Shown: in pieces, positions 8,086-48,460 of the stretch
How positions within the stretch are numbered: position 1 is the stretch's first letter
Layout: the number at the start of each line of letters is the position of its first letter
From: Euborellia annulipes
Lineage: Eukaryota; Arthropoda; Insecta; Dermaptera; Anisolabididae
NCBI GenBank assembly: GCA_023213315.1
Contig: JAKCPI010002524.1
Coordinates: 43,816 to 107,815 of the forward strand
Length of the DNA: 64,000 nucleotides
Direction of reading: 5' to 3'
Made by a program: the position numbers and the translations under genes
The notes under the pieces: generated by a model
The model's input: the letters and a program-made list of their open reading frames with translations, nothing else
What the model was told of the DNA's origin: nothing
Database searches by the model: none

Positions 8086-8120
8086 AACGTTTCAGCCACT
8101 CATTCTGTGGCCTTCTTCAG
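8086..8120 (-). ncRNA. Hammerhead ribozyme-like core (P1 left)
   Basis: Read on the minus strand: CTGAAGA, then a helix II closed by GCCAC/GUGGC, then GAAACGTT. The conserved core bases are present and the cleavage triplet would be GUU. Known type I hammerheads of Penelope-like elements have such very short helix III. Activity is inferred, not shown. Confidence 0.6.
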
Positions 8121-8139
8121 GAACAATTCAGCTAAAATT

Positions 8140-8275
8140 ATAAAGGTCATTTAGACCACATTCCTATTTATTTCAAATCAAATGAAATAAATTTTTCTCG
8201 CTTAGGACGGGAAGCGTACCCGGGACCCTAGGCACTAGAAGCTAGTGTGTTCTCTCTGAGCCACGGGCCAAGGGC
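8140..8275 (-). repeat. SINE-C, tRNA-like head
   Basis: On the minus strand the unit starts GGCCCGTGGCTCAGAGAG, which holds a box A-like TGGCTCAGAGAG. A diverged box B follows around GGGTCCCGGGTACGC. An AAATAAATAGGAATGTGGTC tail and a TCTAAATGACC stretch related to the shared SINE domain come next. It is inserted in, or captured by, ribozyme palindrome P1. Not a tRNA gene: there is no cloverleaf with intact stems. Confidence 0.5.
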
Positions 8276-8302
8276 AAAAGGTTGTTACCTTTATAATCTT
8301 AG

Positions 8303-8337
8303 CTGAAGAAGGCGAGAGAATAAGTGGCCGAAACGTT
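8303..8337 (+). ncRNA. Hammerhead ribozyme-like core (P1 right)
   Basis: CTGAAGA at 8303-8309 and GAAACGTT at 8330-8337 bracket a weak helix II (GGC/GCC). It is the partner of the minus-strand core at 8086-8120. Confidence 0.6.
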
Positions 8338-8638
8338 GTAATTTTTACAAATAAACCACAGTTCTTTTTCTTCCTGTGAAATCCTAAAATAAACTTCAAA
8401 AAAACGAATTACAATAAAATCTCTCAAATGAAAAATAATTCAAATTCTTATATAAGAAAATTTATTTTTATGTTTTAATAAAATATCTAAATGGATATAT
8501 TACAATTGAAAAATTCTAATTTTCACAAACACAATTAAAAGATATGTATTTGTTGAGTGTGGAAGTGGCTGTGATTAATATCTTAAAAGAATGGCAGGAA
8601 GGAGCGTCTCCAAAACAATGAAACTCCCAGATATTCGC

Positions 8639-8673
8639 GACGTTTCGGTTCAAATTTATTTGACCATCATCAG
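8639..8673 (-). ncRNA. Hammerhead ribozyme-like core (P2 left)
   Basis: Minus strand: CTGATGA, an extra U, helix II GGU/ACC continuing CAAAU/AUUUG past a bulged A, then GAAACGTC. All conserved core positions are present. Confidence 0.7.
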
Positions 8674-8930
8674 GCAATCAGGAGTTGTCATATGTAAATT
8701 TGTATAAATATATTTATGCATATGTTGCTTTGGACTTGTTAATGACATTAAAATTTTGCTCATCTGCAATCGAAGGCTTAGATATGTGAGGAAGTAATTA
8801 CTTGCATTACTTCCTCACATATCTAAGCCTTCGATTGCAGATGAGCAAAATTTTAATGTCATTAACAAGTCCAAAGCAACATATGCATAAATATATTTAT
8901 ACAAATTTACATATGACAACTCCTGATTGC

Positions 8931-8965
8931 CTGATGATGGTCAAATAAATTTGGACCGAAACGTC
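8931..8965 (+). ncRNA. Hammerhead ribozyme-like core (P2 right)
   Basis: CTGATGA (8931-8937), one unpaired U, helix II GGUC/GACC with an 11-nt loop, and GAAACGTC (8958-8965). Helix I can form between TTGC just before the core and GCGAA after the cleavage site. The NUH triplet is GUC. This is one of the cleanest copies in the window. Confidence 0.75.
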
Positions 8966-9128
8966 GCGAATATCTGGGAGTTTCATTGTTTTGGAGACGC
9001 TCCTTCCTGGCTGCTACCTCCTGCCATTCTTTTAAGATAAAAGATATGTATGTATTTCTTAATAAACTTTATTAATAAATTGCACAACATTTTAGTATTT
9101 ATTTCATTTATTTATTACCCATTAGGCT

Positions 9129-9160
9129 GACATTTCGGTCTCGGTCGAGACCATCTTCAG
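9129..9160 (-). ncRNA. Hammerhead ribozyme-like core (P3 left)
   Basis: Minus strand: CTGAAGA, U, a perfect 6-bp helix II GGUCUC/GAGACC with a GACC loop, and GAAATGTC. Helix I can start with AGCU/AGC. The core is intact. Confidence 0.7.
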
Positions 9161-9210
9161 AGCTACAACATAGCAGGGATAAGGATATATTTTAAAATTA
9201 CATTGTAGCT

Positions 9211-9242
9211 CTGAAGATGGTCCCGACCTAGACCGAAACATC
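9211..9242 (+). ncRNA. Hammerhead ribozyme-like core (P3 right)
   Basis: CTGAAGA, U, helix II GGUC/GACC, GAAACATC. The cleavage triplet would be AUC, which is permitted by the NUH rule. Confidence 0.68.
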
Positions 9243-9278
9243 AGCCTAATAGGTATTAAATAAATGAAATAAATACTA

Positions 9279-9935
9279 GCTCCTTTTCTTTCTTCTTCCT
9301 TCTACTTTCAACATCTTCTATCCAGCTATAAATCTACTTTTCTCCACATAGTAGCTTATCTTCTTCATGCTTAATTTAATACTTTTTTGAACTAAAAACG
9401 TGTATTTTCATCAAATTTTTGACTCTATGTATTTATACTTAAGAAATATTGTTTTTTTTGCCGCCCCCTTTCTCATCTATAAATTTGACATTTGTTGTCC
9501 TGTCTAGCCCCTAACTAAGGGCTTTATTTCATTAATGTGTAAATAATCAATTAGTGACGCTCGACGTTCTCGTCGTCGTCGTTGTCGTTGTCGTTGTTGG
9601 CCTTTAGGGCTCAAAGACCAACTGGTCCATTCTCAAGTGTTTGCCTTTATGATTCAACTCGCCATCTGAGGAGGGAGAGCCCAGCTCGCCGCCAGTCCTT
9701 TTGCTTGCATTATTTCTTATTCTTTCTTTTCTATTTCACCCTTTATTTACATTTGGTTGAAATTAAAAAAAAAAAAGAAAAAAATAATAGTACTTGAAAA
9801 AGCACTTGTAATATTGTAAATATTACACCTCGAGAAAAAAAATTATAACATTTTCTGTTTTAAAGTTGAAATTTTATATTTAAGCTAGGCACCCAAGAGA
9901 AAGAAGTAAAAATGAAAATAACAATTTTAACAATG
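9279..9935. other. AT-rich spacer with CGT triplet run
   Basis: No gene. A GTCGTCGTTGTCGTTGTC-type triplet run lies at about 9570-9598, producing a spurious short frame. Ends in a scrap matching Rep-A (TTGAAATTTTATATTTAAGC at about 9866-9886). Confidence 0.55.
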
Positions 9936-10165
9936 CCCTCGGGCTTGGTAGCGCGCCTGCTTTGTATACCAAGGGTCGAGGGTTCGGATCCCAGGAGGTC
10001 CGATGATTTTATTTAAGCCATTTGGCTTAAATAGAAATGCCTGGGCCCCCAATAATATTTACAAATAACGAGTATCGTTTAAAGTCTTGAATGGCCTAAG
10101 ATGCCGAAAGGCCTGTGTGTACGTGTGGGTGAATAAGAAAAAAGTGTGAGTGTTAAAAAAAAAAT
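9936..10165 (+). repeat. SINE-A copy, near complete
   Basis: Head GCCCTCGGGCTTGG with part of box A deleted, box B-like GGTTCGGATCC, then a short palindrome from TTTAAGCC, then AATGGCCTAAGATGCCGAAA (shared domain), a GTGTGTG-rich region and a poly-A tail. This is the organisation of a tRNA-derived SINE transcribed by RNA polymerase III and moved by a LINE. Confidence 0.8.
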
Positions 10166-10233
10166 TAACAATAAATTATAATAAATAAATAGCCAAACAG
10201 CTATGTTTCTTTCTTTATTATAGAAACAACAGC

Positions 10234-10266
10234 GACGTTTCGGTCGACTATGCGACCATCTTCATG
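10234..10266 (-). ncRNA. Hammerhead-like core, one core base changed
   Basis: Minus strand: ATGAAGA in place of CTGAAGA, helix II GGUCG/CGACC, GAAACGTC. The change at the first core base should impair or abolish cleavage. Confidence 0.5.
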
Positions 10267-10315
10267 GCTATGGTTCAGACAACAGAAAAACCCTTTTCTG
10301 AAGTAAACGAAACCT

Positions 10316-10349
10316 GTATTTCAGTATGCCTAACGCAAACCATCCTCAG
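10316..10349 (-). ncRNA. Degenerate hammerhead-like core
   Basis: CTGAGGA is intact on the minus strand, but the last part reads GAAATACA, so the U of the NUH triplet is lost. Confidence 0.4.
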
Positions 10350-10403
10350 TGCATCAAATTATACGATTGTATAAAACGCTCCAGAATCGTATAATCCGAT
10401 GTA

Positions 10404-10438
10404 GTGAGGATGGTTTGCGTTAGGCATACCGAAATATC
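10404..10438 (+). ncRNA. Degenerate hammerhead-like core
   Basis: GTGAGGA (first base changed), helix II GGU-U-UGC/GCA-U-ACC with one U-U mismatch, then GAAATATC. Partner of the minus core at 10316-10349. Confidence 0.45.
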
Positions 10439-10560
10439 TGCAAATAAATTGTTTTAACGTGGAAAGCATTCTCTGGTTTTTTCTTCTCCATAACCTTAAA
10501 ATCCTTTTCTTTGAAAAACTGAAACCGGGTTCCATCTTAAAAAAAAGAAACATATCTGCT

Positions 10561-10860
10561 TGGCTTTTTATTTATTCTAATAAATTATAAGAAAAAGATT
10601 TATTTAAAATTAACATTCCGGCACATTTCGAATCGTGTCATCATCAAAAGAGATTTTACTATGCTTCTCCTTTTGTTTTATTTTCTTCCTGGCTGCATGT
10701 GACTATTGGTCATTATAGGTCTTCGGACCTTATGCACCCATTCACAAAAAAAAAAAAAAAAAATTTAGTGATGAAAAATCCTTCGGAAATTCACCAAGTA
10801 GGCCTAGTTTCGAATATCGGTCGCGCAAATAGTAAATTTATAATATATCAAAATGTATAA
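10561..10860. other. Decayed ribozyme element remnant and spacer
   Basis: A very degenerate motif (TTGATGA...GAAATGTG on the minus strand, about 10622-10657) is followed at 10688-10696 by CCTGGCTGC, the box shared by ribozyme elements. The rest is AT-rich with an A run near 10747-10764. Confidence 0.4.
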
Positions 10861-10864
10861 ATAT

Positions 10865-11040
10865 TTTTTTTTATATTTTCGGCATCAGATCCCGTCTCTA
10901 ATTATTTGATTAGAAGCCGTGTCGTATGAGACACGATGCAGACCCGGGACCTCTAGAACAAGAGACAACTGCTACTAGTTTTTCAAGGTCTTTTTCGGCA
11001 TCTGAGGCCATTTAGATTCCGACCCTATTTATTTCGTAAA
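10865..11040 (-). repeat. SINE-C-like copy, decayed
   Basis: On the minus strand this shows an AAATAGGGTCGGAATCTAAA then TGGCCTCAGATGCCGAAAAA arrangement (10990-11030) and a CCCGGGTCTGC patch. It matches the SINE-C tail and the shared domain; the head is not clear. Confidence 0.45.
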
Positions 11041-11068
11041 GATGATGGAGAAAATGGCTGTTTAATTT

Positions 11069-11411
11069 GATAAGGATAGCGAATAGCAGCTAGGAAAAAT
11101 CAAATCAGACAAAAAACTAGATCAGTTTTTATCAGATTTATTTGATCGTCGACGTTTCGGACGCCAGTCGCGCTCTTCCTCAGGACCTATGATCGATACA
11201 TGTACAATTATTATAAATCAACAGCAAAGCCATCATTTTTCTTCTCCCTCATTTTCCCTCTATACTTACAATCAATCGTCAATCAAATACAGATGGAGGT
11301 ATTTTTAGCGAAAACTGAAATCGTGTATGAAACAAAAATTTCAATATGCGAAATTTTGATCTAGTTTTTGTCTGATTTGATTTTTCCTGGCTGCTATTCG
11401 CTATCCTTATC
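11069..11411. mobile_element. Ribozyme palindrome P5, right core lost
   Basis: Outer arms GATAAGGATAGCGAATAGCA and the inverse at 11392-11411 match well. The left arm has an intact core on the minus strand (11151-11183); the right arm keeps CCTGGCTGC (11386-11394) but no plus-strand core. It is a one-ribozyme derivative. Confidence 0.7.
11151..11183 (-). ncRNA. Hammerhead ribozyme-like core (P5)
   Basis: Minus strand: CTGAGGA, A, helix II GAGCGC/GCGUCC with one mismatch, GAAACGTC. GUC/GAC can start helix I. The shared box appears, with one change, 57 nt downstream. Confidence 0.65.
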
Positions 11412-11433
11412 TATTTATTTCATTTGAGATAAA

Positions 11434-11689
11434 GTTGAGGGAGTCCCTCCTCAACTAGGACATCCTCCATAGCATAGAAGAGGTTGGATATAAGGAGCCG
11501 GTTGGAAGGATTAGTTCATCAGCTAGAGACGAAAGCAGGAGGAGGAGATAGAGATAAGAAATGATGTAACTTCACGGGGTGCCGGTAGATGGCTACGGCC
11601 AGAGGCCGGTTGGGTTTGTAGTGTGTGTCTTCGTGCACGAAAGCACCTCGGGTAAATAAACGGGGATCCCGATAGGAATTTCAAAATAA
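11434..11689 (+). repeat. Rep-B copy 1
   Basis: Family with the conserved stretch TAACTTCACGGGGTGCCGGT, then TAGATGGCTACGGCC, a hairpin around GTGCACGAAAGCACC, GGTAAATAAACGGGGATCCC and an ATTTCAAATAA-type 3' end. Other copies lie at 12481-12690, 13610-13866 and 42349-42518, with a diverged one near 21130-21240. It may be a SINE or a LINE 3' end; it has no clear box A/B and is not classified. Confidence 0.65.
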
Positions 11690-12480
11690 ATAAATAAATA
11701 AAGTCCTCACATGGGATCCAAAAGCGCTACTCTGTTATAAATTTATAAATAATGAACAAATGATGTAATATAATTCCAACAATTATTTAATCTGGAACGG
11801 GGAAAAAGGAATAAAACACTCAATTGAGTTTAAAAGAGAAGGGATGAGGAATTCTATTTGTAATTCAGATTAGAATTTATCCTTTTCAAATATAATATTA
11901 TTTTAAAGCATTTTAAAATAGAGAGAGAGAGAGGAAAAGAGGTTAAAGTCTTTAAAGAGAGAGAGAGAGAGAGAGAGTAAGTAGATGAATACACTTGTTG
12001 CATATTTAATAAATCCCTCTCTCTCTCTCTCTCTTCTCCAGCATCCATCTCTCTCTCATTTTTTACGCTGATGATAAAATTAATATTATTTTTAATATAG
12101 TGATAAATAGAGAGATTGAAAAAAAAAGAGAGAGATGTTGTTGTCTTCTGCTCCATCTATCTCTATCTCTCTATCCGATGGTTGGCTGGTATCAATTTAA
12201 TCGGGCAAATTGGCACCCCCACCCTTCAGAGTCTGTTTCCCTATCAGCACCGAACGATGTACATTTCATTTACTTAAATAACAACATCTCTCTCTCTCTC
12301 TCTCTTTTTTTCGTAGGGGGAATTTAATTGGAAAAGATTGAACTTAGAGAGAGAGAGAGAGAAAAAGAAAATCACTTAACACTATAGTTTTAAATGATAT
12401 TACTCAATCGCGAGAAATATAAGGGGATGGTAAATCCCTAAAGGTCAAACTATAACGTCTACTTGTTATATTATTTAAAT
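11690..12480. other. GA/CT microsatellite field
   Basis: GA and CT runs at about 11918-11978, 12015-12035, 12283-12305 and 12345-12362. The open frames across these runs are repeat artefacts. Confidence 0.7.
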
Positions 12481-12690
12481 CAAGGTGCTTTCGTGCACGG
12501 AAACACACACTTCAAACCTCTAGCCGTAGCCATCTACCGGCACCCCGTGAAGTTACATTATTTCCTATCTCTAACTCCTCATCCTGGTTTCGCCTCTAGC
12601 TAGTCTAATCCTTATTTCTGGTGTCTATTATCCAACCTCTTCTATGCTAGGAAGAATATCCTAGTTGAGGAGGGACTCCCTCAGCACCGT
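12481..12690 (-). repeat. Rep-B copy 2
   Basis: Minus-strand match to Rep-B copy 1, from the GTGCACGAAAGCACC hairpin region (diverged here) to the GAGGGAGTCCCTCCTCAACT start. Opposite in orientation to the copy about 1 kb to its left. Confidence 0.65.
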
Positions 12691-13012
12691 CGTGTAGCCT
12701 ACTCCTTTCGAAGAATTTGTCAATTAAGAAAAATAAATTTGCATTAGGAGCATCATTTAATTATTTATTTATTGTCATTTTTGGAACGTTTTACATTTAC
12801 ACTTTTTTTTTTTACAAAATTTTGATTTTAACTAATGCTAAGACTAAATAAAATATTTTAAAATATACTTTAAAATCCTGAGCTTGAGGGATTTTCTTAA
12901 ATTTTATTTAAGGTCTTTTTCGGCATCGAAGACCATTTATACCCCCCCCCCCTCCCGAGATTTGAAATACTTTTTTATTTTTAATGAAAAAAAAGAAATT
13001 AATGGCTGAGTG
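12691..13012. other. AT-rich spacer with SINE scrap
   Basis: AT-rich DNA. At about 12910-12945 the minus strand carries a version of the shared SINE domain (ATGGTCTTCGATGCCGAAAA), next to a C run at 12942-12951. Confidence 0.45.
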
Positions 13013-13018
13013 AGAAAT

Positions 13019-13080: not shown

Positions 13081-13124
13081 ATTTTTAATGTAAAATTTTA
13101 AAAATTTGATTTGTATTTATATTC

Positions 13125-13318: not shown

Positions 13319-13320
13319 TT

Positions 13321-13455: not shown

Positions 13456-13479
13456 GATTTTTTATTAAATAAGAAAATA

Positions 13480-18547: not shown

Positions 18548-19046
18548 TTTTACTTTCTCTTACCTATGTATATATGTAATATATATAGAAAGTATTGGAT
18601 TCATGTCAAAAATTCGATGTCGAGAATTTGATGGATTTACACGTTTTGAGGTCCCTTGAATCCAAAAAAGTGGTTTTCGTGACATGTTCTGTCTGTCTGT
18701 GAAGAAAATATCTCAAGAATGAAAAGAGCTATGAGGTTGAAATTTTATATTTAAGTTAGCCACCCCCCTGGCACGTGACACGAAGCTTTTGAACAAAGTC
18801 AGCCAAAAAGTACTACTAGTACTTTACTGATTAAATTTTCACGTTTTTTTTTTTACTTTTTCAAAATCGCTCAACGATTTTGATAAAAATTCATAAATAT
18901 ATTATTTTTTAGATGCTCTTTAAAATTTATATTCTCATTTTGGTCTAAAAATTGTTTGAAGCACACTTTACTCTTGTACTTCATAGTAAAGATAGGAGAA
19001 ATGGTTGCGATGGTAACAAAATCTAAATATTTTTAGTAGAAGAATT
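18548..19046 (+). repeat. Rep-A copy, 5' part
   Basis: Complete from TTTTTACTTTCTCTTACC to the TTGCGATGGTAACAAAATCT block. Interrupted by ribozyme palindrome P6; resumes at 19312. Confidence 0.8.
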
Positions 19047-19138
19047 TCGATGGCTTACATGTGAGTGGTAATTATTAGGATTAGGAAGATGTATGGCAGC
19101 CAGCAAATGATAAAAAAAAACTCTATTTGATTATGGTC

Positions 19139-19171
19139 GACGTTTCGGGATCACCTCGACCCCATCTTCAG
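19139..19171 (-). ncRNA. Hammerhead ribozyme-like core (P6 left)
   Basis: Minus strand: CTGAAGA, U, a 6-bp helix II GGGGUC/GAUCCC, GAAACGTC. The core is intact. Confidence 0.7.
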
Positions 19172-19219: not shown

Positions 19220-19252
19220 CTGAAGATGGGATCGACGTGATCCCGGAACGTC
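19220..19252 (+). ncRNA. Hammerhead-like core with GGAA (P6 right)
   Basis: CTGAAGA, U, perfect helix II GGGAUC/GAUCCC, then GGAACGTC. The GAAA is changed to GGAA, which should disable it, while the left partner remains intact. Confidence 0.55.
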
Positions 19253-19964: not shown

Positions 19965-20400
19965 TTTTAAAATACCGTATATCCCTGAACCCCAAGGCCC
20001 CGAGGTCTCTCAAAGGGAAATTTTCATTAAATTTTGTTTTTACTTGAGCCCCAAGGGCCGGGGCCTCTCAAAGGGAAATTTTTATTAAATTTTCTTTTTT
20101 TATCTAAATTTTCCCATTTTTATTGAGCCCTGAGGGCCCCGGGGCCTTTCAAAGGGAAATTTTTATTAAATTTTCTTTTTTTATCTAAATTTTCCCATTT
20201 TTATTGAGCCCTGAGGGCCCCGGGGCCTCTCAAAGGGAAATTTTCATTAAATTTTGTTAGAGCCGAGGCCTTCAAAGGAATAAATTTTTTTTTTGGCTGG
20301 GGCGAAGGGAAATTTTCATAAATTTTTTTTTTATAAATATATGGGGGCTATGCGTGGGGCGGGGCGGACCCCCCCTCGCCCCCCCTTCGGTACCCACTGC
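19965..20400. repeat. Tandem repeat of a GC/AT mosaic unit
   Basis: Four copies of a unit of about 60-82 bp containing AGGGCCCCGGGGCCTCTCAA and AGGGAAATTTTCATTAAATT occur between 19986 and 20270, followed by decayed units and a CG-rich end. The unit resembles the interior of the hAT-type MITE at 47226-47615, so this may be an internally amplified relative. Confidence 0.65.
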
Positions 20401-20459: not shown

Positions 20460-20660
20460 TTAAGGAAGGATGTGTAAATGCAGGCAGCCAGAAATAAAAA
20501 CGCTCTCAATTCCCTTTGAATGTCCAGACGTTTCGGGCAAAATTTATTCGCCCATCCTCAGTGAACTATTCTAGTTGGAGAGAGTTAAGTCTCCTTTGGT
20601 ATACTTAGTTCTACTACGTATTCTATTTAATGTAACCATATGATGATAAATGAGTTCTTT
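20460..20660. mobile_element. Single-ribozyme element P7
   Basis: Contains one intact minus-strand core (20527-20561) with the inverted box GCAGCCAG at 20484-20491, 36 nt past the cleavage site. No plus-strand partner is visible. Confidence 0.6.
20527..20561 (-). ncRNA. Hammerhead ribozyme-like core (P7)
   Basis: Minus strand: CTGAGGA, U, helix II GGGCGAA/UUUUGCCC (one wobble), GAAACGTC. Helix I GUUCA/UGGAC pairs over 5 bp. One of the best candidates. Confidence 0.72.
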
Positions 20661-21759: not shown

Positions 21760-22191
21760 GGATTGGAGATTGAAACCAACGATGAGGTTGAATAATAAAT
21801 TTTATTTAGGCCAACTGTGTACATTTTTGTTCAATTTCGGCAAAAAACAGTCAAATATTTAAAATTAGAAACAGATAATTATAATACATTCGTGACAATT
21901 GTCTAACGACGTTACCTGGCAATAAAATGTCTCTCATATTTTGTTTGTCAAAGTTCTGAACATGAGTTTTTTACACATCAACTCAAACGTCGTTAAGCAA
22001 TTGTCACGAATGTATTATAATTATCTGTTTCTAATTTGAAATATTTGACTGGCTTTTGCCGAAATTGAACAAAAATGTACACAGTTGGCCTAAATAAAAT
22101 TTATTATTCAACAGATACGAGTAGGATGGCAGCCAGGAAAGAAATCAGACAAAGATTTAATCAATCTTTTTATAATTTCATTTCGATTGGC

Positions 22192-22224
22192 GACGTTTCG
22201 GACGCAAATTGCGCCCTTCCTCAG
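22192..22224 (-). ncRNA. Hammerhead ribozyme-like core (P8 left)
   Basis: Minus strand: CTGAGGA, A, 7-bp helix II GGGCGCA/UGCGUCC with one wobble, GAAACGTC. Helix I GAUUGUC/GCCAAUC pairs at 6 of 7 positions. Confidence 0.75.
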
Positions 22225-22265: not shown

Positions 22266-22299
22266 CTGAGGAAAGAGCGCGATTTGCGTCCGAAACGTC
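22266..22299 (+). ncRNA. Hammerhead ribozyme-like core (P8 right)
   Basis: CTGAGGA, then helix II around GAGCGC/GCGUCC with one mismatch, then GAAACGTC. Helix I CGAUUGUC/GGCAAUCG forms 8 bp with one wobble, which strongly supports a folded ribozyme. Confidence 0.75.
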
Positions 22300-22410
22300 G
22301 GCAATCGAAATAAAATTAGGTAAAGATTGATTAAATTTTTGTCTGATTTCTTTCCTGGCTGCCATCCTACTCGTGTCTGTTAATAGTTCAGCCATCATCT
22401 CAATATTATA

Positions 22411-22667
22411 TGGACCCTGTTACGCTTTAGTGTGTCAAGCGCCAGCTACCGAGATTTGAGAAAATTAACATTAAAGTTTTTTGTTTTCATTGGATTATAT
22501 ATAATTTTTTTTGTCAATTGTGCAAGTAACATTAAATATAAATTTTTTTAGGACATACGATATCTCATAAAAAATACTATTGATTAAAGCATTTGAAACA
22601 ATATTCCGTGCTTAACTCAATTTTTAATTTTTTTGGCGCTTGAGACACTAATGCGTAACAGGGTCGA
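22411..22667. mobile_element. TA-type MITE, second copy
   Basis: Matches the MITE at 5850-6101 in terminal repeats (TGGACCCTGTTACGC; the right end reads GTAACAGGGTCGA) and in the interior. The right flank no longer shows a TA duplication. Confidence 0.75.
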
Positions 22668-22820
22668 TTTATTATTCAACCTCATCGTTGGTTTAAATCT
22701 CCAATGCACCCGGAAAACAGGAAAATCCTTGACCAGTAACCACCTTATAACTGCAAAACCATATTATTATATAAACTCGTCTTCTTTCAGTTTTAAAATA
22801 TTTATTTTATTTGAAAATGT

Positions 22821-22853
22821 GACGTTTCGGTTTTATGCTTGAACCATCCTCAG
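22821..22853 (-). ncRNA. Hammerhead ribozyme-like core (P9 left)
   Basis: Minus strand: CTGAGGA, U, helix II GGUU/AACC, GAAACGTC. Helix I pairing is poor. Confidence 0.6.
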
Positions 22854-22879
22854 AGCTGACACACTTATAAAGACCAGCT

Positions 22880-22912
22880 TTGAGAATGGTTCAAACATAG
22901 AATCGAAACGTC
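22880..22912 (+). ncRNA. Degenerate hammerhead-like core (P9 right)
   Basis: TTGAGAA replaces CTGAGGA; helix II GGUUC/GAAUC and GAAACGTC remain. Confidence 0.5.
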
Positions 22913-22935
22913 ACCTTTTCAAATAAAATAAATAA

Positions 22936-24940: not shown

Positions 24941-25562
24941 GGGGCAACAGGAGCGAAGTGGTTACGCATGTTTTTCCCGATAAGATGGCGTAGTGTGTCA
25001 TAAAAAGTATGCCCAAAAAATCAAGTAATTCAAAAATTTGCCAAGAGATGTCAGAATGGTAGCTAATAATATTTAATGCATTTGGTTGATTTTCATTGAT
25101 CTTTTAACAATAAATACTTTATAAATGTTATTATATATTATGTATCTTTTATAAAAGCATAAAAATATATAAATATAGGCCAGTTATAGGTATACCGGTC
25201 TGTTAGACTAGCCTGCCATCTATTGCAAGAATGCTGAACTAATTTGACAGTTGATTTTTAAATAAATCATCTAAGATTATTTTAAAAATTTCTTAATTAA
25301 TATGTGATTAATAATAACAATAAATTCATTTTTAAATTTAAAAAAAATTAAAGATTATTGGGACAGATTGTTTTTTTGTATTTGCTTGATAACAAAAAAA
25401 TTAATTACGATAATTTTTTAATAAGTCATTAAACAAATTATAGCTCGATGTCCCAATAATCTCTTATGAATTTAATTCATTTAAAAAAAAACCGCATTGA
25501 AAAATTCCTTATAATAGTCTAGTTTTTTTTTAAGTACGTTTAGACGTCGCTCCTGAAACCCC
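24941..25562 (+). mobile_element. TTAA-flanked MITE copy 2, complete
   Basis: Flanked by TTAA (24937-24940 and 25563-25566). Ends are inverted repeats GGGGCAACAGGAGCGA and, on the inverse of the right end, GGGGTTTCAGGAGCGA. An inner inverted pair, AGATTATTGGGACA and its inverse (about 25344 and 25456), may be a second element fused in. About 620 bp, no ORF. Superfamily piggyBac or Kolobok by target site only. Confidence 0.85.
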
Positions 25563-26249: not shown

Positions 26250-26690
26250 TGTGGTTTTATGAAACCACGATGCAAGTGAAACTTTTTTTTCGGATCGTAG
26301 GCGTTTAACTGAAAATTTTCAGAAAATTATTCAATTAAGGGTATTAAAATCGCGTTTTTAATCTTAACTTAATAATTGGAAAATGGGAAATCAATAGATG
26401 CATGTTAAAAACTGAGAACAATATTTATTTAGCAAATGAAGATTTGAATCATTTTAAATTATTTTAAAAATTATATTTTATCAATTTAAACATTGAATAA
26501 TTAAATCTCACAATTATTTTTTTTATAATTCGTCATATTTATTAAATTTCAACTTTCGTTATGTACTGTGCTCAATTACTTATTAATTGTTGTAGTTCCG
26601 ATTGTTATATGATAAATGTTATGTTGTTATGAGCGTTGGATTAAATAAACACGCATTTTCTGATTTCCTAATCTTTCTATTTATTACATT
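26250..26690 (+). mobile_element. LTR of a Ty3-type element
   Basis: Begins TGTGGTTTTATGAAACCACG, a small hairpin at a TG start, and runs to TTATTACA, immediately followed by TTTGGCGACGAGGATGGGA. TGGCGAC is a familiar primer-binding-site start in arthropod Ty3/gypsy elements. An inverted, 3'-truncated relative lies at 42000-42330. A TATA-like or poly-A signal (AATAAA) occurs at about 26643. Confidence 0.6.
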
Positions 26691-26708
26691 TGGCGACGAG
26701 GATGGGAT
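26691..26708 (+). promoter_or_regulatory. Primer-binding site of the Ty3-type element
   Basis: TTTGGCGACGAGGATGGG directly after the LTR end. The TGG start pairs with a tRNA CCA end. The sequence then jumps into an inverted RT fragment, so the element is rearranged. Confidence 0.6.
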
Positions 26709-26961
26709 TTCTAAAATCTTTTATGGCTTGAACTTTACTAATATCTGCTTTTACCCCTTTAGGTGTTAAAATATGACCGAGATATTTAATTTCATTCAAA
26801 CATATTTCACATTTATTTTTATTCAATTTAATTCCTTTTTCTTTTAATACGCTTCTTACTTTTTCAAGTCGCTTATCATGTTCATCTTTAGTTCTACCAT
26901 ATATTAAAATATCATCAATATAGACAAAAGATCCTTCACAATTTTGTAATATTTGACTCAT
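26703..26961 (-). pseudogene. Ty3-type reverse transcriptase fragment
   Basis: The minus-strand frame encodes about 86 residues with the catalytic FVYIDDILIYG motif, then KLNKNKCEICLNEIKYLGH and GVKADISKVQAIKDF. That order (YIDD box, then palm and thumb) is standard for Ty3/gypsy RT. No start or end of the protein is present. It is inverted relative to the LTR and to the integrase piece beside it. Confidence 0.85.
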
Positions 26962-26989
26962 AACCCTTTGAAAAATTTCAGGTGCATTT

Positions 26990-27425
26990 GTGAAATATTA
27001 GATGTAAATTGCCAACCTTTCAGGAAGAACCTGATATAAGGATTGATGAGGATATAAGGGAGAAGGATTGGAATGAGAAAATGAAAGGGAAAGAAAATTA
27101 CGATAAAAGGAGACAAGCGAGAGAATCTGAAATAAAAGAAGGGGGATTCGGTTTTAGTGAGACAGTCCAGGGATAGCAAATTAAAAACGGAATTTGGAAA
27201 AGAACCTTGGACCGTAGTCGGAAAAGAAGGAAGTGAAGTCACCATACGAGGCCCAGAAGGTCTTAACAACTTTTGTTAAGAAGTTCAAGGAGGAAAATGA
27301 AGAAAACTATAGGGAAGAGGAGGAAAAGGAAATTACTCAAAATAATGGAAATGACATTAGGATGGAGAATGAGAGTTCAGGAGAAAGGAAATTTAAAAGA
27401 AGAGAAAGCGGAAGAATAAAGAAAA
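26990..27425 (+). pseudogene. Ty3-type integrase C-terminal fragment
   Basis: Three frames together show the tail of a Ty3 integrase: LPTFQEEPDIRIDEDIREKD, YDKRRQARESEIKEG, then GDSVLVRQSRDSKLKTEF and EPWTVVGKEGSEVTIRG, then TTFVKKFKEENEE. Two frameshifts break it. The charged tail (RKFKRRESGRIKK-like) and purine-rich DNA before 27425 would precede the 3' LTR. Confidence 0.75.
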
Positions 27426-34226: not shown

Positions 34227-35167
34227 AAAAAAAAATCTGGTGTGACTGGCGCACAGCACACAACTTTCTCTTACCTTCGGTAATCGAAAGTTGTGTACTG
34301 TGCTTGTCACACCAGATTTTTTGTGTCGACATGTATTTAGTTTCCGACAGTAGGGTACAATTGAATTCAAGATGTAAAATTTTTATTTTATTTTTTTTTT
34401 TTTTAAAGTCATTTCGGCTGCAGAGGTCATTTGACTTATATAAATATTTATTATTTATTTAAATACATGTATCGATGGCTTCCGGCGGGCGTTCAATGGT
34501 CTTGTTTTTCGGGGGCCACCTATCCCGATTTTCAGCACCACTTGGCGTTGCTTAACAATGATGATCTTGGTGGCTGTTGTTCTTTCTTCTTGCCAGGCCC
34601 GCCGGCATGTAAAATTTATAAGTATGGGAAAATATTTATATTTTGATACCATGGCAACCATTTCTCCTATCTTTTCTATGGAGTACAAGAGTAAAGTGGT
34701 CTTCAGAAGATTTCAATGACAAAATGAGAATATACATTTTATAGAGAATCTAAAAAATAATTGATTTTTGAATTTTAAAAAAAATCGTTGGAGCAAATTT
34801 TGAGAAAATCGAAAAAAACTGAAAAAGTGAATCAGTAAAGTACTAGTACTTTTTGGTCGATTTTGTTCAAAAGCTTCGTGTCACGTCCCATGGGGTGCCT
34901 AGCTTAAATATAAAATTTCAACTTCCTAGGTCTTCCTTCGTTCTTGAGATATCTTGTTCACAGACACACAGACAGACAGACACACAGACAGACAGACACA
35001 CAGACACACAGACAGACAGACCATGTCGCGAAAACCACTTTTTTGGATTCAGGAGACCTCAAAACGTGAAGATCCATCAAAATCTCGACATCGAATTTTT
35101 GACATGAATCCAATACTTTCTCTCTATATATATATTACATATATACATAGGTAAGAGAAAGTAAAAA
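34227..35167 (-). repeat. Rep-A copy, full length, with 5S-like SINE inside
   Basis: Runs from the hairpin end (34227) to TTTTTACTTTCTCTTACC (35167, minus strand). Interrupted at 34383-34606. A CAGACAGACAGACACACAGA microsatellite spans 34960-35022. Removing the insert restores the family sequence. Confidence 0.85.
34383..34606 (-). mobile_element. 5S rRNA-derived SINE (SINE3-like) with 11-bp duplication
   Basis: Read on the minus strand it contains GTTAAGCAACGCCAAGTGGT and then CGGGATAGGTGGCCCCCGA. These match in order the internal promoter part of 5S rRNA (GTTAAGCAACG..., GGATGGGTGACCGCC). Downstream come AAATGACCTCTGCAGCCGAA (a form of the shared SINE domain) and a poly-A tail. ATGTAAAATTT is repeated on both sides, an 11-bp target duplication in Rep-A. 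It is not a 5S gene: the rest diverges. Confidence 0.7.
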
Positions 35168-39106: not shown

Positions 39107-39786
39107 AAAAATCTGGTGTGACTGGCGCAGCCACAACTTTCTCTTACCTTCAGTAATCGAAAGTTGTGTACTGTGCTTGTCGCACCAGATTTTTTGTGTC
39201 GACATGTATTTAGTTTCCGACAGTAGGGTACAAATGAATTCAAGATGTAAAATTTATAAGTATGGGAAAATATTTATATTTTGATACCATGGCAACCATT
39301 TCTCCTATCTTTTCTATGGAGTACAAGAGTAAAGTGGTCTTCAGAAGATTTCAATCACAAAATGAGAATATACATTTTATAGATAATCCAAAAAATAATT
39401 AATTTTTGAATTTAAAAAAATCGTTGGAGCAAATTTTGAGAAAATCGAAAAAACTGAAAAAGTGAATCAGTAAAGTGCTAGTACTTTTTGGTCGATTTTG
39501 TTCAAAAGCTTCGTGTCACGTCCCATGGGGGTGCCTAACTTAAATATAAAATTTCAGCTTCCTAGCTCTTTTCGTTCTTGAGATATTTTGTTCACAGACA
39601 CACAGACAGCACACACACACACACACACACACAGACAGACCATGTCGCGAAAACCACTTTTTTGGATTCAGGGGACCTCAAAACGTGAAGATCCATCAAA
39701 ATCTCGACATCAATTTTTGACATGAATCCAATACTTTCTCTCTATATATATATTACATATATACATAGGTAAGAGAAAGTAAAAAA
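39107..39786 (-). repeat. Rep-A, full-length copy
   Basis: Complete minus-strand copy from hairpin end (39107) to TTTTTACTTTCTCTTACC (39786), uninterrupted, with an ACACACAC run at 39609-39632. A good partner to 7259-7950 for defining the consensus. Confidence 0.85.
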
Positions 39787-41030: not shown

Positions 41031-41077
41031 TGAAATTATTTAAATTTCACCTTGTCAACTAGACTTTAATATAAGTC

Positions 41078-41111
41078 CTGAAGATGGGTGACATTTTGCC
41101 CTCGAAATGGT
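41078..41111 (+). ncRNA. Degenerate hammerhead-like core
   Basis: CTGAAGA is intact; helix II GGG/CCC; GAAATGGT lacks the expected NUH form. Confidence 0.35.
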
Positions 41112-41161
41112 GAAAACTAGATAAAGGCTAGTTGTAATAAAATTTTTATTATAATACATTC

Positions 41162-41194
41162 TTGTGGAAGGACACAATTGACGTCCGAAACGTT
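41162..41194 (+). ncRNA. Degenerate hammerhead-like core
   Basis: TTGTGGA in place of CTGAGGA, helix II GGAC/GUCC, GAAACGTT. Lies 50 bp after another degenerate core. Confidence 0.4.
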
Positions 41195-43585: not shown

Positions 43586-43918
43586 GCCCTCGGGGCTTGG
43601 TGTAGGGATTAGCGTGCTAACCAAAACCCACACACATACACATAGTCTTTTCGGCAACTTAGGCCTTATAAGACTTTAAACGGTACTGTTTAATGTATCT
43701 ATTGGGGGTCCAGGCATTCTTATTTAAGCCATTTGGTACCCAAATGGCTTAAATAAAATCATCGGACTGCCTGAGATCCGAACCCGCAACTCTTGGTATA
43801 CAAGGCCAGCAACGCTAACCCCTACACCAAGCCCCGAGGACCAAATTTAAATAATTTATAAACAAATTTATTGCTCTCGGGCTTGGTGTAGTTGGTAGCG
43901 CGCCTGCCTTGTATACCA
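43586..43918. repeat. Three SINE-A pieces in a cluster
   Basis: 43586-43622 is a plus-strand head, cut before box B. 43623-43840 is a minus-strand copy with head, box B (GGTTCGGATCTC inverse form), palindrome and shared domain. 43872-43918 is another plus-strand head. Repeated insertion near existing SINEs is evident. Confidence 0.75.
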
Positions 43919-44209
43919 GAAGAAAAAATATTGCCCTCCCCCCTTTAGAGCGCCCCCTAATGGTCTGATGTTTACTAAAAGGTTTTCAGTTCTTGGCCTC
44001 TACCCCTAGTTTATGTGTGGAAAATTTCAAAACAATTGAATGAATAGTTTTTGAGATTTCGTTGACGAAAAAAAATTACCACAGACACCCATCATTCCAA
44101 AAAATACTTAAATAGATTCATGAGACCTCAAAACACATTTTGGCACCTTCAATTCAATTTCAATTTTTTTTTACGTACATTAACTTTCCCTGTCCAACCT
44201 ACGGTTGTT
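43919..44209. other. Unclassified spacer
   Basis: Contains AATTGAATGAATAGTTTTTG-type sequence that may be an old relative of Rep-A, but I cannot support it. No gene. Confidence 0.35.
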
Positions 44210-44560
44210 GGTTGATTTGTCAATTTTAGACAAAATGGTTGGAGCGAATTTTGAGAAAATCGAAAAATAAACTGTAATAGTACCTCAGTTAAAGTACTAG
44301 TAGTTTTTGGCCGATTTTGTTTAAAAGCTTATTTTCACGACTTCGGGGGGGGGTGTTTAACTTAAATATAAAATTCCAGCCTCGTAGCTCATTTCCTTCA
44401 TGCTTAAAATTGAACACACACACACGGACCAAGTTGCGGAAACCATGGACTCAAGGGACCTTAAAACGTGTATATCCATCAAAATCTCGACACCGAATTT
44501 TTGACATGATCGCAATACTTTCTCTATAAATTTCATAAATAGGGTAAGAGAAATTAAAAG
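44210..44560 (-). repeat. Rep-A copy, 5' half
   Basis: Minus strand from GGGTAAGAGAAATTAAAA (44560) to GGTTGGAGCGAATTTTGAGA (44238). The hairpin end is missing. Confidence 0.65.
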
Positions 44561-45448
44561 TTGTGGACCATAAAAAAAAAAGAAATTTTACATATTTTTA
44601 TTTTAGAAATAAAATTTTCCAAAATAATTGAGTAATTTTGTTTTTTTTTTTATATATATATATAAATTTGCATGAATTAAAAAAGGGCTATATTATCAAC
44701 GTCACGATGATGACGATGATGATCATCATCATCAGCCAACCGCTGGTATTTTGGTATATAAATCACATAGCGGGCCAATGGGTTGAGTCCCCCCCCCCTA
44801 CACGGGGTTCATTGGTTTGGTTCATTTTATCCCCCCAATGTGTATGTGAAAGAGAGAGAGAGAGAGAGAGATAGACACCATTGGTTTTATAAACGGCCCT
44901 TTGGATGCGAAAAAATTCACACACACAGAGAGATAGATACAAACGGACATTCAAGGGTGGTAGTGGGGGTGGATGGTTTATTTATTTTGATGACCACAAT
45001 TATCGTCAGTGGCGCCCCGGAGCTTTAAAATTGGATCCGATTTGCCTCTCCAAAACGAGGTAGCTCTATTATCATCTATGATTCACGGATAACGACATTT
45101 GACACCGAACCCCCTCCCTCTCCCCCCCTTGCACCCCTTTAGCATTCAACCACTGCCATTCTCTCTATTTATTATTATGTTGTTATGTTGCTAAAACAAA
45201 TTTATAATTCGAGAGAGAGAGAGAGAGGGCAAAAAAAAAATTGGTGTGAGTGAGTTATTAATTAAGTTAATTATTTATTTAAAGTTTTCAATTAAAAAAC
45301 AAAAAAAAAAACATACAAGATTTTTTTTTTAAATTTAATAATATTATTAGAAAATGTTTTGAAGCTCCTTAGCTGAAAGCAAAAACGTTTTTGACTAATC
45401 GTGCCTGAAACTGTTTTTTTTTTCAATGCTTTTCTATGGGCCAACGTA
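44561..45448. other. Microsatellite-rich spacer
   Basis: GAT/ATC triplets at 44706-44735, GA run at 44849-44871, GA run at 45212-45227. No gene. Confidence 0.6.
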
Positions 45449-45655
45449 CAGTGAGGGACAATATTAAGTTCCATCCATGGTTTTCTACTTGTGATTATTT
45501 CATTGTTTTTAAAAAAATTTATATATTTTTTAATGGAAACTTTCATGGTTCAAACCTAAAAAATTTCCAATAAAGATTTTCATTTTTATTTATAAAAACA
45601 ATGAAATAATACAAATTGAAAAAGAATGGGTGGGGGTTAATATTGACCCTCACTG
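45449..45655. mobile_element. Tc1/mariner-like MITE, 207 bp
   Basis: Ends CAGTGAGGGACAATATTAA and, inverted, TTAATATTGACCCTCACTG, flanked by TA on both sides (45447-45448, 45656-45657). Inner arms also pair (TTATTTCATTGTTTTTA and its inverse). CAGTG starts and TA duplications are typical of Tc1/mariner. Confidence 0.85.
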
Positions 45656-45786
45656 TACACCGAGGAGGTAAAACACAATTGAGCATGATTCGACATCATT
45701 GAATTTAATATGATCTGATTAAAATCTATAATCAGGAAACCGAAGGAGATTAAATAAAAAACATTTTATTTTATTTTTTACTTGCC

Positions 45787-45819
45787 GACGTTTCGGTCGT
45801 CTGTCACGACCTTCATCAG
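45787..45819 (-). ncRNA. Hammerhead ribozyme-like core (P10 left)
   Basis: Minus strand: CTGATGA, A, perfect 6-bp helix II GGUCGU/ACGACC with GACAG loop, GAAACGTC. Helix I UUGCC/GGCAA pairs perfectly. Best-looking copy in the window. Confidence 0.78.
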
Positions 45820-46003
45820 GGCAAATAATTGTCAACAATACACGATCTTAGGTATTTTGATGTTTACTATAATCATATACAATTTTTGTTTTTTTAATTT
45901 TTATATGGTATATAAATTATCATTTACTTGCTTGGGATCTTGGATTCAATGAATCACACATGAAAATACCTAAGATCGTGTATTGTTGACAATTAAAATT
46001 GCA

Positions 46004-46036
46004 CTGATGAAGGTCGTGACAGACGACCGAAACGTC
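46004..46036 (+). ncRNA. Hammerhead ribozyme-like core (P10 right)
   Basis: CTGATGA, A, GGUCGU/ACGACC, GAAACGTC, identical to its partner. Helix I UUGC/GCAA has one mismatch at its first pair. Confidence 0.76.
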
Positions 46037-46147
46037 GGCAAGTGAAAAAATTAAATAAAAGATTTTTTTATTTTAATCTCCTGGCTGCAAAGTTCCTTCG
46101 GTTTTCTGATTAAATCTCCACAGCCATAACACATTAAATTAAAATCT

Positions 46148-46450
46148 ATCTATATATATAATTCGCTAATGTCCGTCTGTCTGTCACGCTTCGTTCATAG
46201 GAATTTAGAAACGAAATTTGTTAGGCTTAAAGAGGATTTTCTAGAGATTTCAGGAAAATTATTTTCATCCCGAAATTCCTATAACTTTTTGAGTTATTAA
46301 TTCCTAAATTTACAATTTCTCCCATAGGAAATGTATAGAGAAAGATTTATGTATTCTTAATGAATGTAAACAAATCACTCAAGCAAGCACTAGATTGGAA
46401 TAGGCAAGGGTTCGTCGCAGGCGGGCCCGAGCCAGCTGGTGGGTGTCCCG
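46148..46450 (+). repeat. Rep-H copy 2
   Basis: TATATATAATTCGCTAATGT, GTCCGTCTGTCTGTCACG, CCCGAAATTCCTATAACTTT, AAGCAAGCACTAGATTGGAA, then GGCGGGCCCGAGCCAGCTGG. Uninterrupted, so it defines the family better than the 17-kb copy. Confidence 0.6.
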
Positions 46451-47149
46451 AGTAAAAAATGATCGAGGGATACACACGCCCGCAGCAGGTCTGCATAGTG
46501 AACCTAGAGGGATACACACGCCCGCACCAGGGACACACATTTTTCTTCTGGTCACTTTCGATCTACTGTGTGTGTCCATGGTGTGGACGTGTATATATCC
46601 CTTAAAGTTCTCTAGTTAAACTAAATTTCTCTTCACTTTGTTAAGTTCCTATCATTTTTTCCCCCTGAAATCTTATATGCCTAGTATTATTATTATTATT
46701 TATTTTTTTGTTCACCCGGAGGCGATGCGCAGATGGTGAGAAATAAACGGAGAGAGAGAGAGAGAGTAAAATGCATCAACCAGCAGTAGCAGCCAAGTCT
46801 TTAGGCCCTCGGGGTTGATATTTAACTTTATTACCCTAAAGAAGGAGATAAGGGAGAAGGGAGGGCAGGGCACCTCTCTCTCTCTCTCTCTCTTGTCTTT
46901 CAGACCATGTGTGTCCATCTATGTTTAAGGGAAATCGGATTAACTGCAATTTTAGGGGTGTAAATGCATGACACTCTCTCTCTTTTCAAGATTCTCATCA
47001 ATTTTATATACTGTATAGGATATTAAAATTCGAGCTTTGTCTTTGTCTTTGTCTTTGTTTATATCCGAAATAGAAGATAAACTTGAGGGTCGGTCGTTTT
47101 TAAAGTGTTCTTTTTAAGGATGTCCCTTAACTCAAGCTCATTTTCGGAT
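46451..47149. other. Spacer with short direct repeat and GA/CT runs
   Basis: GGGATACACACGCCCGCA occurs twice (about 46467 and 46510). GA run at 46750-46768, CT run at 46873-46893, and a CTTTGT hexamer repeat at 47036-47060. No gene. Confidence 0.5.
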
Positions 47150-47165
47150 ACCACCTCCTGAAGAC

Positions 47166-47198
47166 AACGTTTCAACCGCTTATCGCGTTCATCATCAG
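47166..47198 (-). ncRNA. Hammerhead ribozyme-like core (P11 left)
   Basis: Minus strand: CTGATGA, U, G, helix II AACGC/GCGGUU with a bulge, GAAACGTT. Confidence 0.6.
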
Positions 47199-47225
47199 TA
47201 CCTTTTGTTGACCTTAGGGCCTGAT

Positions 47226-47615
47226 CAGAGGCGTAACGTATTTTAGCTGGGCCCCCCGCAACCTTTTTTTCGCTCGGACGTATATAAGGAGGCAGAGGGC
47301 CCCCGCCCCCAAATTTTTCAAATCTATATACATATATACGGGTATAAGGCTAATTTCTAAATTTTTGTTTGAAAAAGCGCTTCGTATAAATAAAAGCAAT
47401 AAAAACATGAAAAAATATATTAATATTTAAGCACTTTTTTAAATAAAAGTTTTGTCTTTGAGAGGGCCCCGGGCCCCTTGGGCTCAGGTGAAAACGGAAA
47501 AATGATAACTTATATTATAAAAGGAAAAAAAGAATATATCATTTTTTCATGGCCTTGAAAGCCCGGCCCCCCCCCCCGCATTGCGGGGTTTGCGGGGGTG
47601 TACGTTACGCCACTG
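47226..47615. mobile_element. hAT-type MITE with 8-bp duplication GGCCTGAT
   Basis: Ends CAGAGGCGTAACGTA and TACGTTACGCCACTG are inverted repeats with one mismatch. Exact 8-bp duplication GGCCTGAT at 47218-47225 and 47616-47623. The 390-bp interior contains GGCCCCGGGCCCCTTGGG and AT-rich sequence like the tandem repeat at 19965-20400. Confidence 0.9.
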
Positions 47616-47618
47616 GGC

Positions 47619-47651
47619 CTGATGATAAGCTCGATGAGCGTTCGAAACGTC
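47619..47651 (+). ncRNA. Hammerhead ribozyme-like core (P11 right)
   Basis: CTGATGA is partly made of the MITE target duplication. Helix II is imperfect, AA-GCUC/GAGC-UU; GAAACGTC follows. Confidence 0.6.
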
Positions 47652-47891
47652 GACAGAGAAAATAGAAATTTTGTTTTTTGTTGACTGCCTCTGATTATCT
47701 CCTGAATAGAGTAACTAATCAGCCATTTCCAATTATAAATGTTAATGAATGCAAAATTTGAAACATATTTCGGAGTGCCGAGTTAAAAAGTTTATACAAA
47801 TTTACAAATGTCCCTGTATATATATTTTGTTTGATGTATCACTGCGTGAAATATGTTGATTTTTGATATGTATGAATAATGTTTATAAGCC

Positions 47892-47925
47892 CTGAAGATG
47901 GGTTTAAATGTAAGCGAAACACTTC
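47892..47925 (+). ncRNA. Degenerate hammerhead-like core
   Basis: CTGAAGA is intact, GAAACACT lacks the U of NUH, helix II weak. Confidence 0.35.
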
Positions 47926-48340
47926 AAAGCGCTGAGGCTTATAAAAAAAAAGTCTCTACAATATAAAAAACAAGGTTGAACCCCTCAAAATCTCGAGACA
48001 AGTAGCCAGACATGCAATCCGGGCTGCATACAAAAGCATCGCAGGCGCAAATCTAGTGAATAGATTCCTTGAGGCACCTATTGTTTGCGTTTTTTTTTTT
48101 ATTGTACAGTTGATGTCAGAGCCCAGTTTATTTATAAATAAGAATTGGACCACAGGATAGAGTATCGCGGCGTTGAAAGAATCTACTAAATACATTAGAT
48201 GAAATTGTACTGCCCTGAGTCAATTATCATAATAGGCACAAAAAAAAAAAAATAATATATATATATATATTGTACTGGTGGTAGAAGAAGAAAAAAATGA
48301 TTTTCATTCTGTAAAAATTTTTAAAAATTGATTGTTGAAC
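47926..48340. other. AT-rich spacer
   Basis: TA microsatellite at 48255-48270, T run near 48091-48100. No gene. Confidence 0.45.
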
Positions 48341-48460
48341 TATATTTATAAAAGAAAATGTTTCGTTGTCTATAGCTCCGAGGATGGCTTTGACAAAAGC
48401 CGATACGTCAGCTGTTAAAATATATTTTTAAAGAAAAAATTTTGGCTGCGTTTTCTCTTG
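48341..48460 (+). mobile_element. Single-ribozyme remnant P12
   Basis: Core at 48378-48409 and TTTGGCTGC at 48441-48449 give the same order and spacing as the better copies; no minus-strand partner. The remnant follows the usual pattern of a ribozyme then the box 32 nt after the cleavage site. Confidence 0.55.
48378..48409 (+). ncRNA. Degenerate hammerhead-like core with good stems
   Basis: CCGAGGA and GATACGTC each differ from the core at one base. Helix II GGCUUU/AAAGCC is perfect and helix I AUAGCU/AGCUGU pairs over 6 bp with one wobble. The stems are kept while the core is mutated. Confidence 0.55.

Follow-up and report, generated by a model that had tools for sequence, protein, structure and literature searches.

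Palindromic elements without open reading frames in Euborellia annulipes DNA carry minimal type I hammerhead-like motifs and resemble inverted Penelope pseudo-LTR pairs

Penelope-like elements (PLEs) typically consist of two direct pseudo-long terminal repeats (pLTRs) and an adjacent inverted pLTR, and the available part of PMC3846280 gives head-to-head as the commonest pLTR orientation, a characteristic 31-bp tail as optional on one of the inverted pLTRs, and duplications of 8-10 bp in several copies but none in others. How such elements insert is debated: the palindromes at junctions of inverted pLTRs were read by those authors as self-priming (PMC3846280), whereas PMC11167929 argues for priming on both target strands. 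The accessible portion of the latter describes an Anolis Penelope protein that cuts the two strands of its target and extends each of them, a reverse transcriptase (RT) reaction that starts at two adjacent sites whose spacing equals the tail, and a hammerhead that cleaves only with protein assistance. Thousands of minimal hammerheads of unknown role are dispersed in animal genomes (PMC7761336, available in part). Here we describe short palindromic elements with hammerhead-like motifs in a 64,000-nucleotide stretch from the dermapteran insect Euborellia annulipes (contig JAKCPI010002524.1, positions 43,816 to 107,815), which is AT-rich and repeat-rich and is called the window below; all sequence results refer to this single stretch. 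Minimal type I hammerheads in metazoan genomes and PLEs were reportedly described by Cervera and de la Pena in 2014 and by Lunse et al. in 2017.

The window elements are very probably of Penelope type. They are interpreted here, with good but lesser probability, as Penelope-derived inverted pLTR pairs without an open reading frame (ORF) that carry minimal type I hammerheads and were perhaps primed on both target strands. The first-pass annotation had proposed non-autonomous relatives of PLEs with type I hammerheads, and this proved the best reading on the basis of the type I layout, the inverted arms, the mostly single tail and the candidate target duplications.

The hammerhead-like motif in the window is real. 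The order CTGANGA, stem region, GAAA and NNUH was found at all 16 sites listed by the first-pass annotation (copies are named here by their start position). The strict pattern CTGANGAWGG-N6-18-CCGAAACGTC, which was defined post hoc when the copies had already been seen, matched the window eight times compared with none in 100 dinucleotide shuffles. A scan for at least four contiguous helix II pairs gave 11 sites, compared with a mean of 0.54 and a maximum of 4 in 100 Markov sequences; it was passed by 10 of the 16 listed sites and failed by 8303, 8639, 11151, 22266, 47166 and 47619. A covariance model trained on 11 elements (R1) recovered 20 copies at E<=3.4e-5, 11 of which are its training copies; these comprised all 16 listed sites and four further ones, 10234(-), 19220(+), 22880(+) and 48378(+). 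Five marginal matches followed at E 0.017-0.035, namely 10325(-), 10392(+), 41066(+), 41166(+) and 47880(+). When a model was trained on six elements from 19-48 kb (R2), all eight copies at 8-12 kb were recovered at E<=1.1e-4, with the best non-counted match at E=0.0077, and a model trained on five elements from 8-12 kb (R3) recovered 10 of the 12 copies at 19-48 kb at E<=1.8e-4. The two weak copies, neither of which was in the training of R3, scored E=0.0021 (47166) and E=0.0043 (47619). The two halves are partly dependent, because 11151 and 22192, one in each half, have related arms. The earlier count of 16 intact and about ten degenerate cores is revised to 20 supported copies, two of them weakly, and five marginal ones.

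CTGANGA was exact in 17 of the 20 copies and GAAA in 18, NUH fits the last three bases in all 20, and helix I is open to the flanks, which is the type I layout. Every copy has an extra base between A9 and helix II (T in 13, A in 7), with a second additional A in copy 22266, and helix II directly follows A9 in none of the 20; the extra T turns A9-T-G into ATG in 12 copies. An internal helix III was found in none of the 20 copies, as GAAACGUC gives no loop. The ACGT palindrome was kept in 18 copies and lost in 9129 and 9211, and since ACGU is self-complementary and GAAACGUC leaves no loop, a 4-bp helix III could be formed only between two copies. Any cleavage would thus need tandem or intermolecular pairs, probably helped by protein. 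The description of the cores as intact hammerheads was therefore overstated, since none of the 16 listed sites has a canonical core, and the helix III that had been called very short is absent altogether. Its layout is that of a minimal type I hammerhead, apart from the extra base and the missing helix III.

A natural hammerhead with an extra base after A9 exists in the chrysanthemum chlorotic mottle viroid (CChMVd), whose ribozyme has a helix III of its own. De la Pena and Flores are said to have found in 2001 that the CChMVd (+) hammerhead has an extra A at position 10 and that a U there raises the rate. The window copies are like it in having one extra base, A or U, between A9 and 10.1, and unlike it with respect to its viroid origin and its own helix III.

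These features also bear on catalysis. The hammerhead-like fold may have been kept as a protein-binding or priming structure of a Penelope RNA that is a ribozyme no longer, which would be compatible with either insertion model; we consider this possible but doubtful. The conservation of the core bases in CTGANGA and GAAA argues against it, as does the extra U, which at the same place reportedly speeds the viroid hammerhead. On the other side, every window copy lacks helix III and has the extra core base, and in the predicted folds of whole-palindrome transcripts 28-35 nt of each sense core were paired to the antisense core (6 of 6), so that cleavage would need single-arm transcripts or other copies. 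The available text of PMC11167929 adds that the Anolis hammerhead is inactive without protein, that Anolis core mutants still insert in vitro, and that no reads end at the predicted Anolis cleavage site.

The claim that helix II sequences differ between elements while pairing is kept largely holds. With one copy per element (11 elements), 92.7% of the helix II cells and 61.4% of the helix I cells were paired, and the covariation score was 0.547 compared with 0.235 after shuffling (0 of 500 shuffles as high) and at most 0.225 in slid registers. With all 19 aligned copies, three of five measures were reached by none of 500 shuffles, and the other two were weaker (88/500 and 33/500). Shuffling of the helix I strands among 12 families gave a mean of 45 pairs, compared with 60 of 96 observed (5/5000 as high). 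These shuffles do not preserve relatedness among the copies.

Fourteen of the 20 copies form seven inverted pairs with their RNA 3' ends pointing outward, and a fifteenth (11151) lies on one arm of an eighth inverted repeat; this arrangement is absent from the first-pass annotation. The elements, with their parts, and the remaining copies are given below.

8550-9037, palindromic element P8639, arms aligned over 8579-8798 and 8806-9039 (about 220 nt, differing by a single mismatch and a 14-nt gap, around a 7-nt centre), hammerheads 8639-8673(-) and 8931-8965(+)
8536-8549 (left) and 9038-9051 (right), candidate target duplication of P8639, TAAAAGATATGTAT, 14 bp
8550-8580(-), 31-nt tail of P8639 with CAGCCA, on the left arm only
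about 9005-9018, TGGCTG stretch of P8639
45730-46137, palindromic element P45787, hammerheads 45787-45819(-) and 46004-46036(+)
45718-45729 and 46138-46149, candidate duplication of P45787, ATTAAAATCTAT, 12 bp
46112-46137, 26-nt tail of P45787, on the right arm only
46081-46095, TGGCTG stretch of P45787
46082-46126(+), 3' hairpin TGGCTG...CAGCCA of P45787
11036-11410, element P11063, hammerhead 11151-11183(-) on the long left arm
11357-11410, right arm of P11063, 5'-truncated and without hammerhead
11025-11035 and 11411-11421, candidate duplication of P11063, CTATTTATTTC, 11 bp
11036-11069, tail of P11063
19034-19313, palindromic element P19139, hammerheads 19139-19171(-) and 19220-19252(+, GGAA variant), flanked by the candidate duplication AAATATTTT, 9 bp, within chance
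19034-19073, tail of P19139
22113-22405, palindromic element P22192, hammerheads 22192-22224(-) and 22266-22299(+)
22100-22112 and 22668-22680, candidate duplication of P22192, TTTATTATTCAAC, 13 bp, spotted by eye; another element, resembling a miniature inverted-repeat transposable element (MITE), is nested between the arm and the right repeat (about 22406-22667)
from 22379, tail of P22192
22356-22394(+), 3' hairpin TGGCTG...CAGCCA of P22192
10182-10578, inverted-repeat element P10265, whose left arm has the hammerhead-like copy 10234-10265(-, ATGAAGA), AGCCA tail on neither arm
10170-10181 and 10579-10590, AT-rich direct repeat of P10265, AATAAATTATAA, 12 bp
9093-9278, palindromic element P9129, hammerheads 9129-9160(-) and 9211-9242(+), the two copies without the ACGT palindrome
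22799-22934, palindromic element P22821, hammerheads 22821-22853(-) and 22880-22912(+, degenerate core)
8058-8355, inverted pair P8086, hammerheads 8086-8120(-) and 8303-8337(+), helix II disturbed in copy 8303
20527-20561(-), single copy, predicted minimum free energy (MFE) fold with helix I of 5 bp and helix II of 6 bp, partner arm not found
47166-47198(-), weak copy inside a 96-codon open frame (47062-47349(-)) for which no homologue was found
47619-47651(+), weak copy with disturbed helix II, CAGCCA 68 nt downstream
48378-48409(+), copy outside the listed 16, CCGAGGA...GATACGTC
48443-48496, 3' hairpin TGGCTG...CAGCCA after copy 48378
41066-41194(+), two marginal matches (41066 and 41166) in the same orientation, separated by about 100 nt, perhaps a direct tandem

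A single palindrome formed by 47166 and 47619 was rejected, as only 32 nt were alignable.

The inverted arrangement bears on the metazoan non-LTR retrozymes, which carry type I hammerheads and spread via small circular RNAs. The window elements are like them in being short and non-coding, with type I hammerhead motifs (PMC7229834, available in part). Retrozymes are, however, direct tandem repeats, many with an internal helix III (same source), whereas the window copies are mostly inverted pairs without an internal helix III, and Tandem Repeats Finder gave no array over the 20 supported copies. An origin as retrozymes is very unlikely.

Candidate target duplications, of the lengths given above, flank six elements (P8639, P45787, P11063, P22192, P19139 and P10265). 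Among 2000 random window spots with 60x60 flanks, at least 9 shared bp were found in 113, at least 11 in 29, at least 12 in 18 and at least 14 in 7; because 113 spots reach 9 bp or more, the P19139 repeat is not significant alone. Exactly one arm is tailed, the tail containing AGCCA, in five of these six elements. The tailed arms are extended by 31, 26, 34, 40 and at least 27 nt; the short arms of the same five elements end 10, 10, 10, 18 and 11 nt short of the AGCCA position. Under independent choice by each arm, at least five one-tailed elements among six would have a probability of at most 0.11, which hints at an ordered mechanism. The near-constant stop of the short arm is a stronger point than the one-tail count.

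The outer ends are also where self-priming can be weighed. In the model given in the available part of PMC3846280, complementary DNA or antisense RNA folds back and is copied, and the palindrome then inserts. This predicts shared outer ends, but the outer ends differ in five of the six elements with candidate duplications, the short arm stops 10-11 nt before AGCCA in four elements and 18 nt before it in one, and the arms of P11063 are unequal, one being long and the other 5'-truncated. Self-priming would explain the small centres (7 nt in P8639), the near-identical arms, the about equal and tailless outer ends of P10265 and, as those authors argued, the palindromes at inverted junctions (PMC3846280). 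We judge it rather unlikely as the origin of the window elements.

The same ends can be compared with those of ordinary fold-back DNA transposons (MITEs). The motif would then be a terminal inverted repeat mobilized by a transposase, with an incidental likeness to hammerheads. The palindromes do look MITE-like, and other MITE-like palindromes occur in the window (45446-45658; 22406-22668). A fixed duplication length and identical arm termini would be expected, but the candidate duplications range in length between 9 and 14 bp, five of six elements have unlike outer ends, the arms of P11063 are very unequal, and helices I and II co-vary between elements. This explanation is very unlikely.

A second feature of the 3' region is a putative hairpin. 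AGCCA lies 68-91 nt 3' of GUC in 7 of the 20 copies; it lies at most 160 nt from GUC in 9 copies, compared with 14% of random stretches, although two of these nine AGCCA (9129, 22192) are outside the arm and were excluded from the count. An upstream TGGCTG is able to pair with CAGCCA, and the exact combination TGGCTG...CAGCCA was found at three places, each downstream of a motif copy, a number reached by none of 100 shuffles. The hairpin was the predicted fold in P45787 (z -2.61), P22192 (z -1.95) and P19139 (z -1.66, one pair shorter). In P8639 and P45787, a stretch of 14-15 nt with TGGCTG, with TCC repeats at its borders, is missing from one arm. A TGGCTG-like pairing in P22821 was dropped, as its 3' strand belongs to another repeat and the match is probably due to chance, and a compensatory-looking pair in P9129 (TAGCT/AGCTA), seen post hoc, was not counted.

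Compared with Penelope/Poseidon-type elements (Adineta vaga Pen2a and relatives, PMC3846280; Anolis PAc, PMC11167929; both available in part), the window elements are alike in the inverted pLTRs, the short duplications, the optional tail of about 31 bp, the AT-rich target, the hammerhead in the pLTR region and the priming downstream of the hammerhead. Inverted head-to-head arms with a short duplication were found, with duplication candidates in six elements and none in three, and a tail of this kind on one inverted arm was found in five of six. Unlike these elements, the window inserts consist of the two arms alone, without an RT or GIY-YIG frame, and their candidate duplications are 9-14 bp compared with 8-10 bp. 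The dispersed minimal hammerheads of metazoans and PLEs (PMC7761336, in its available part) are likewise type I, lack helix III and are expected to act as dimers, whereas the window motifs lie mostly in inverted-pair elements, several with target duplications.

Rfam models were largely silent on these motifs. No hammerhead was found in the window at gathering thresholds or among the 80 matches listed at E<=10. For the segment 45740-45860 the sole hammerhead row was RF00008, with 13.4 bits compared with a gathering score of 48.5. At 16 loci of viral contigs (L001-L016), hammerhead-like cores were found that share the extra base following A9, such as CTGATGATGGCC...GGCCGAAACGTC, with 5-7 contiguous helix II pairs in 14 and two pairs in the remaining two. 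Eight of these loci, putative ribozymes with similar extra-U cores, gave no Rfam hammerhead at gathering thresholds either, and the silence of Rfam on the window therefore carries little weight. Model R1 matched 15 of the 16 viral loci at E 1.2e-5 to 0.0092, mainly via the core and helix II (L016, E 0.8), so that it is not specific for the window elements, and the viral loci were not counted as relatives. The arm pattern had two genome-contig matches (L017, L018), both in bacterial sequence and apparently fortuitous.

Several observations weigh against the interpretation as Penelope-derived pairs primed on both strands. A Pfam scan of 100 of the 104 window frames of at least 70 amino acids gave no Penelope protein and no GIY-YIG domain. 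Kinship is thus drawn from architecture and not from a gene; strict membership in Penelope fails on the protein feature, the likeness in working holds on architecture, and the elements are non-autonomous relatives at most. A search of viral contigs and genome contigs for relatives of the elements found none. In the predicted MFE folds, 8 of the 20 copies formed a helix I of at least 3 bp and 13 formed helix II, counts that include one row (48366) with ends misplaced by at least one base. The P19139 repeat is within chance and the P22192 repeat was found by eye; P8086, P9129 and P22821 were checked at their ends for a target duplication and none was found. P10265 is the exception to the one-tail pattern, the hairpin was not the predicted fold in three of the six tails folded, and the TGGCTG strand of P8639 is missing from the tailed arm. 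The inner ends of the arms are often close together, as self-priming also predicts. Finally, the Anolis start sites are alike on both strands, and a strict order of one long and one short arm is not predicted from them (PMC11167929, available in part).

The mechanism proposed for such Penelope-derived pairs is as follows. Each element would be two copies of the 3' part of one RNA, the pLTR with the minimal type I hammerhead, in a head-to-head arrangement that places an RNA 3' end on either outer side. A putative Penelope-type helper protein, encoded elsewhere in the genome, would bind the RNA 3' region and make two cuts about 9-14 bp apart, one in each strand of an AT-rich target. The DNA 3' ends freed in this way would each prime a copy of the RNA. 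One copy would usually begin 3' of the CAGCCA strand and give the long, tailed arm, and the other would begin about 10 nt 5' of this strand and give the short arm; both would extend past the hammerhead until they meet at the centre. A helix III could form only between two copies (ACGU:ACGU). Priming on both strands, taken by itself, is evenly poised between acceptance and doubt.

The other features of the window are as follows.

60425-63379(-), open 985-codon Ty3/gypsy pol frame with RT, RNase H and integrase; among the matches listed (best 120 of 1469), the closest reach 80% identity, Nesidiocoris tenuis and Lygus hesperus (mirid bugs) are highest of the species-named ones at 63-64%, and a pseudoscorpion protein at 43% identity has a better E-value than the mirid matches
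26680-26997, fragment that, with the Ty3/gypsy frame, accounts for the two RVT_1 matches in the 100 scanned frames
5846-6105 and 22406-22668, two copies of a MITE-like palindrome, GGACCCTG...CAGGGTCC; one lies inside a repeat with an empty site near 25133, and the other splits the P22192 tail
45446-45658, palindrome ACAGTGAGGG...CCCTCACTGT, Tc1/mariner-MITE-like by appearance only
7259-7950, 34607-35166, 39107-39784 and others, family of dispersed repeats reaching about 690 bp in length, with copies as much as 95% alike
20037-20255, 81-bp unit repeated in tandem, 2.7 copies

A literature search gave no title or abstract opening on hammerhead palindromes; the likeliest sources (Cervera 2014, Lunse 2017, Arkhipova 2017) lay outside it, and no claim is made that such elements are unpublished. 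The kind of element is already known, and the useful part is the one-tail pattern together with the 3' hairpin. For annotators, some apparent MITEs may be elements of this sort, and caution is advised with Rfam models, which overlook such ribozyme-like motifs. We regard it as an unlikely generalization that most orphan minimal hammerheads of animal genomes are arms of self-standing palindromic Penelope parasites, the palindrome being the footprint of an ordered two-ended insertion that starts at an outer and an inner site flanking CAGCCA, and that the one-tail pattern could settle how Penelope inserts. The ORF-less palindromes of the window show inserts at their simplest, in which the identity of the tailed arm and the stop of the short arm form a readable record of how priming took place. 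Should the one-tail pattern prove general across the genome, two priming events would be favoured over fold-back copying.

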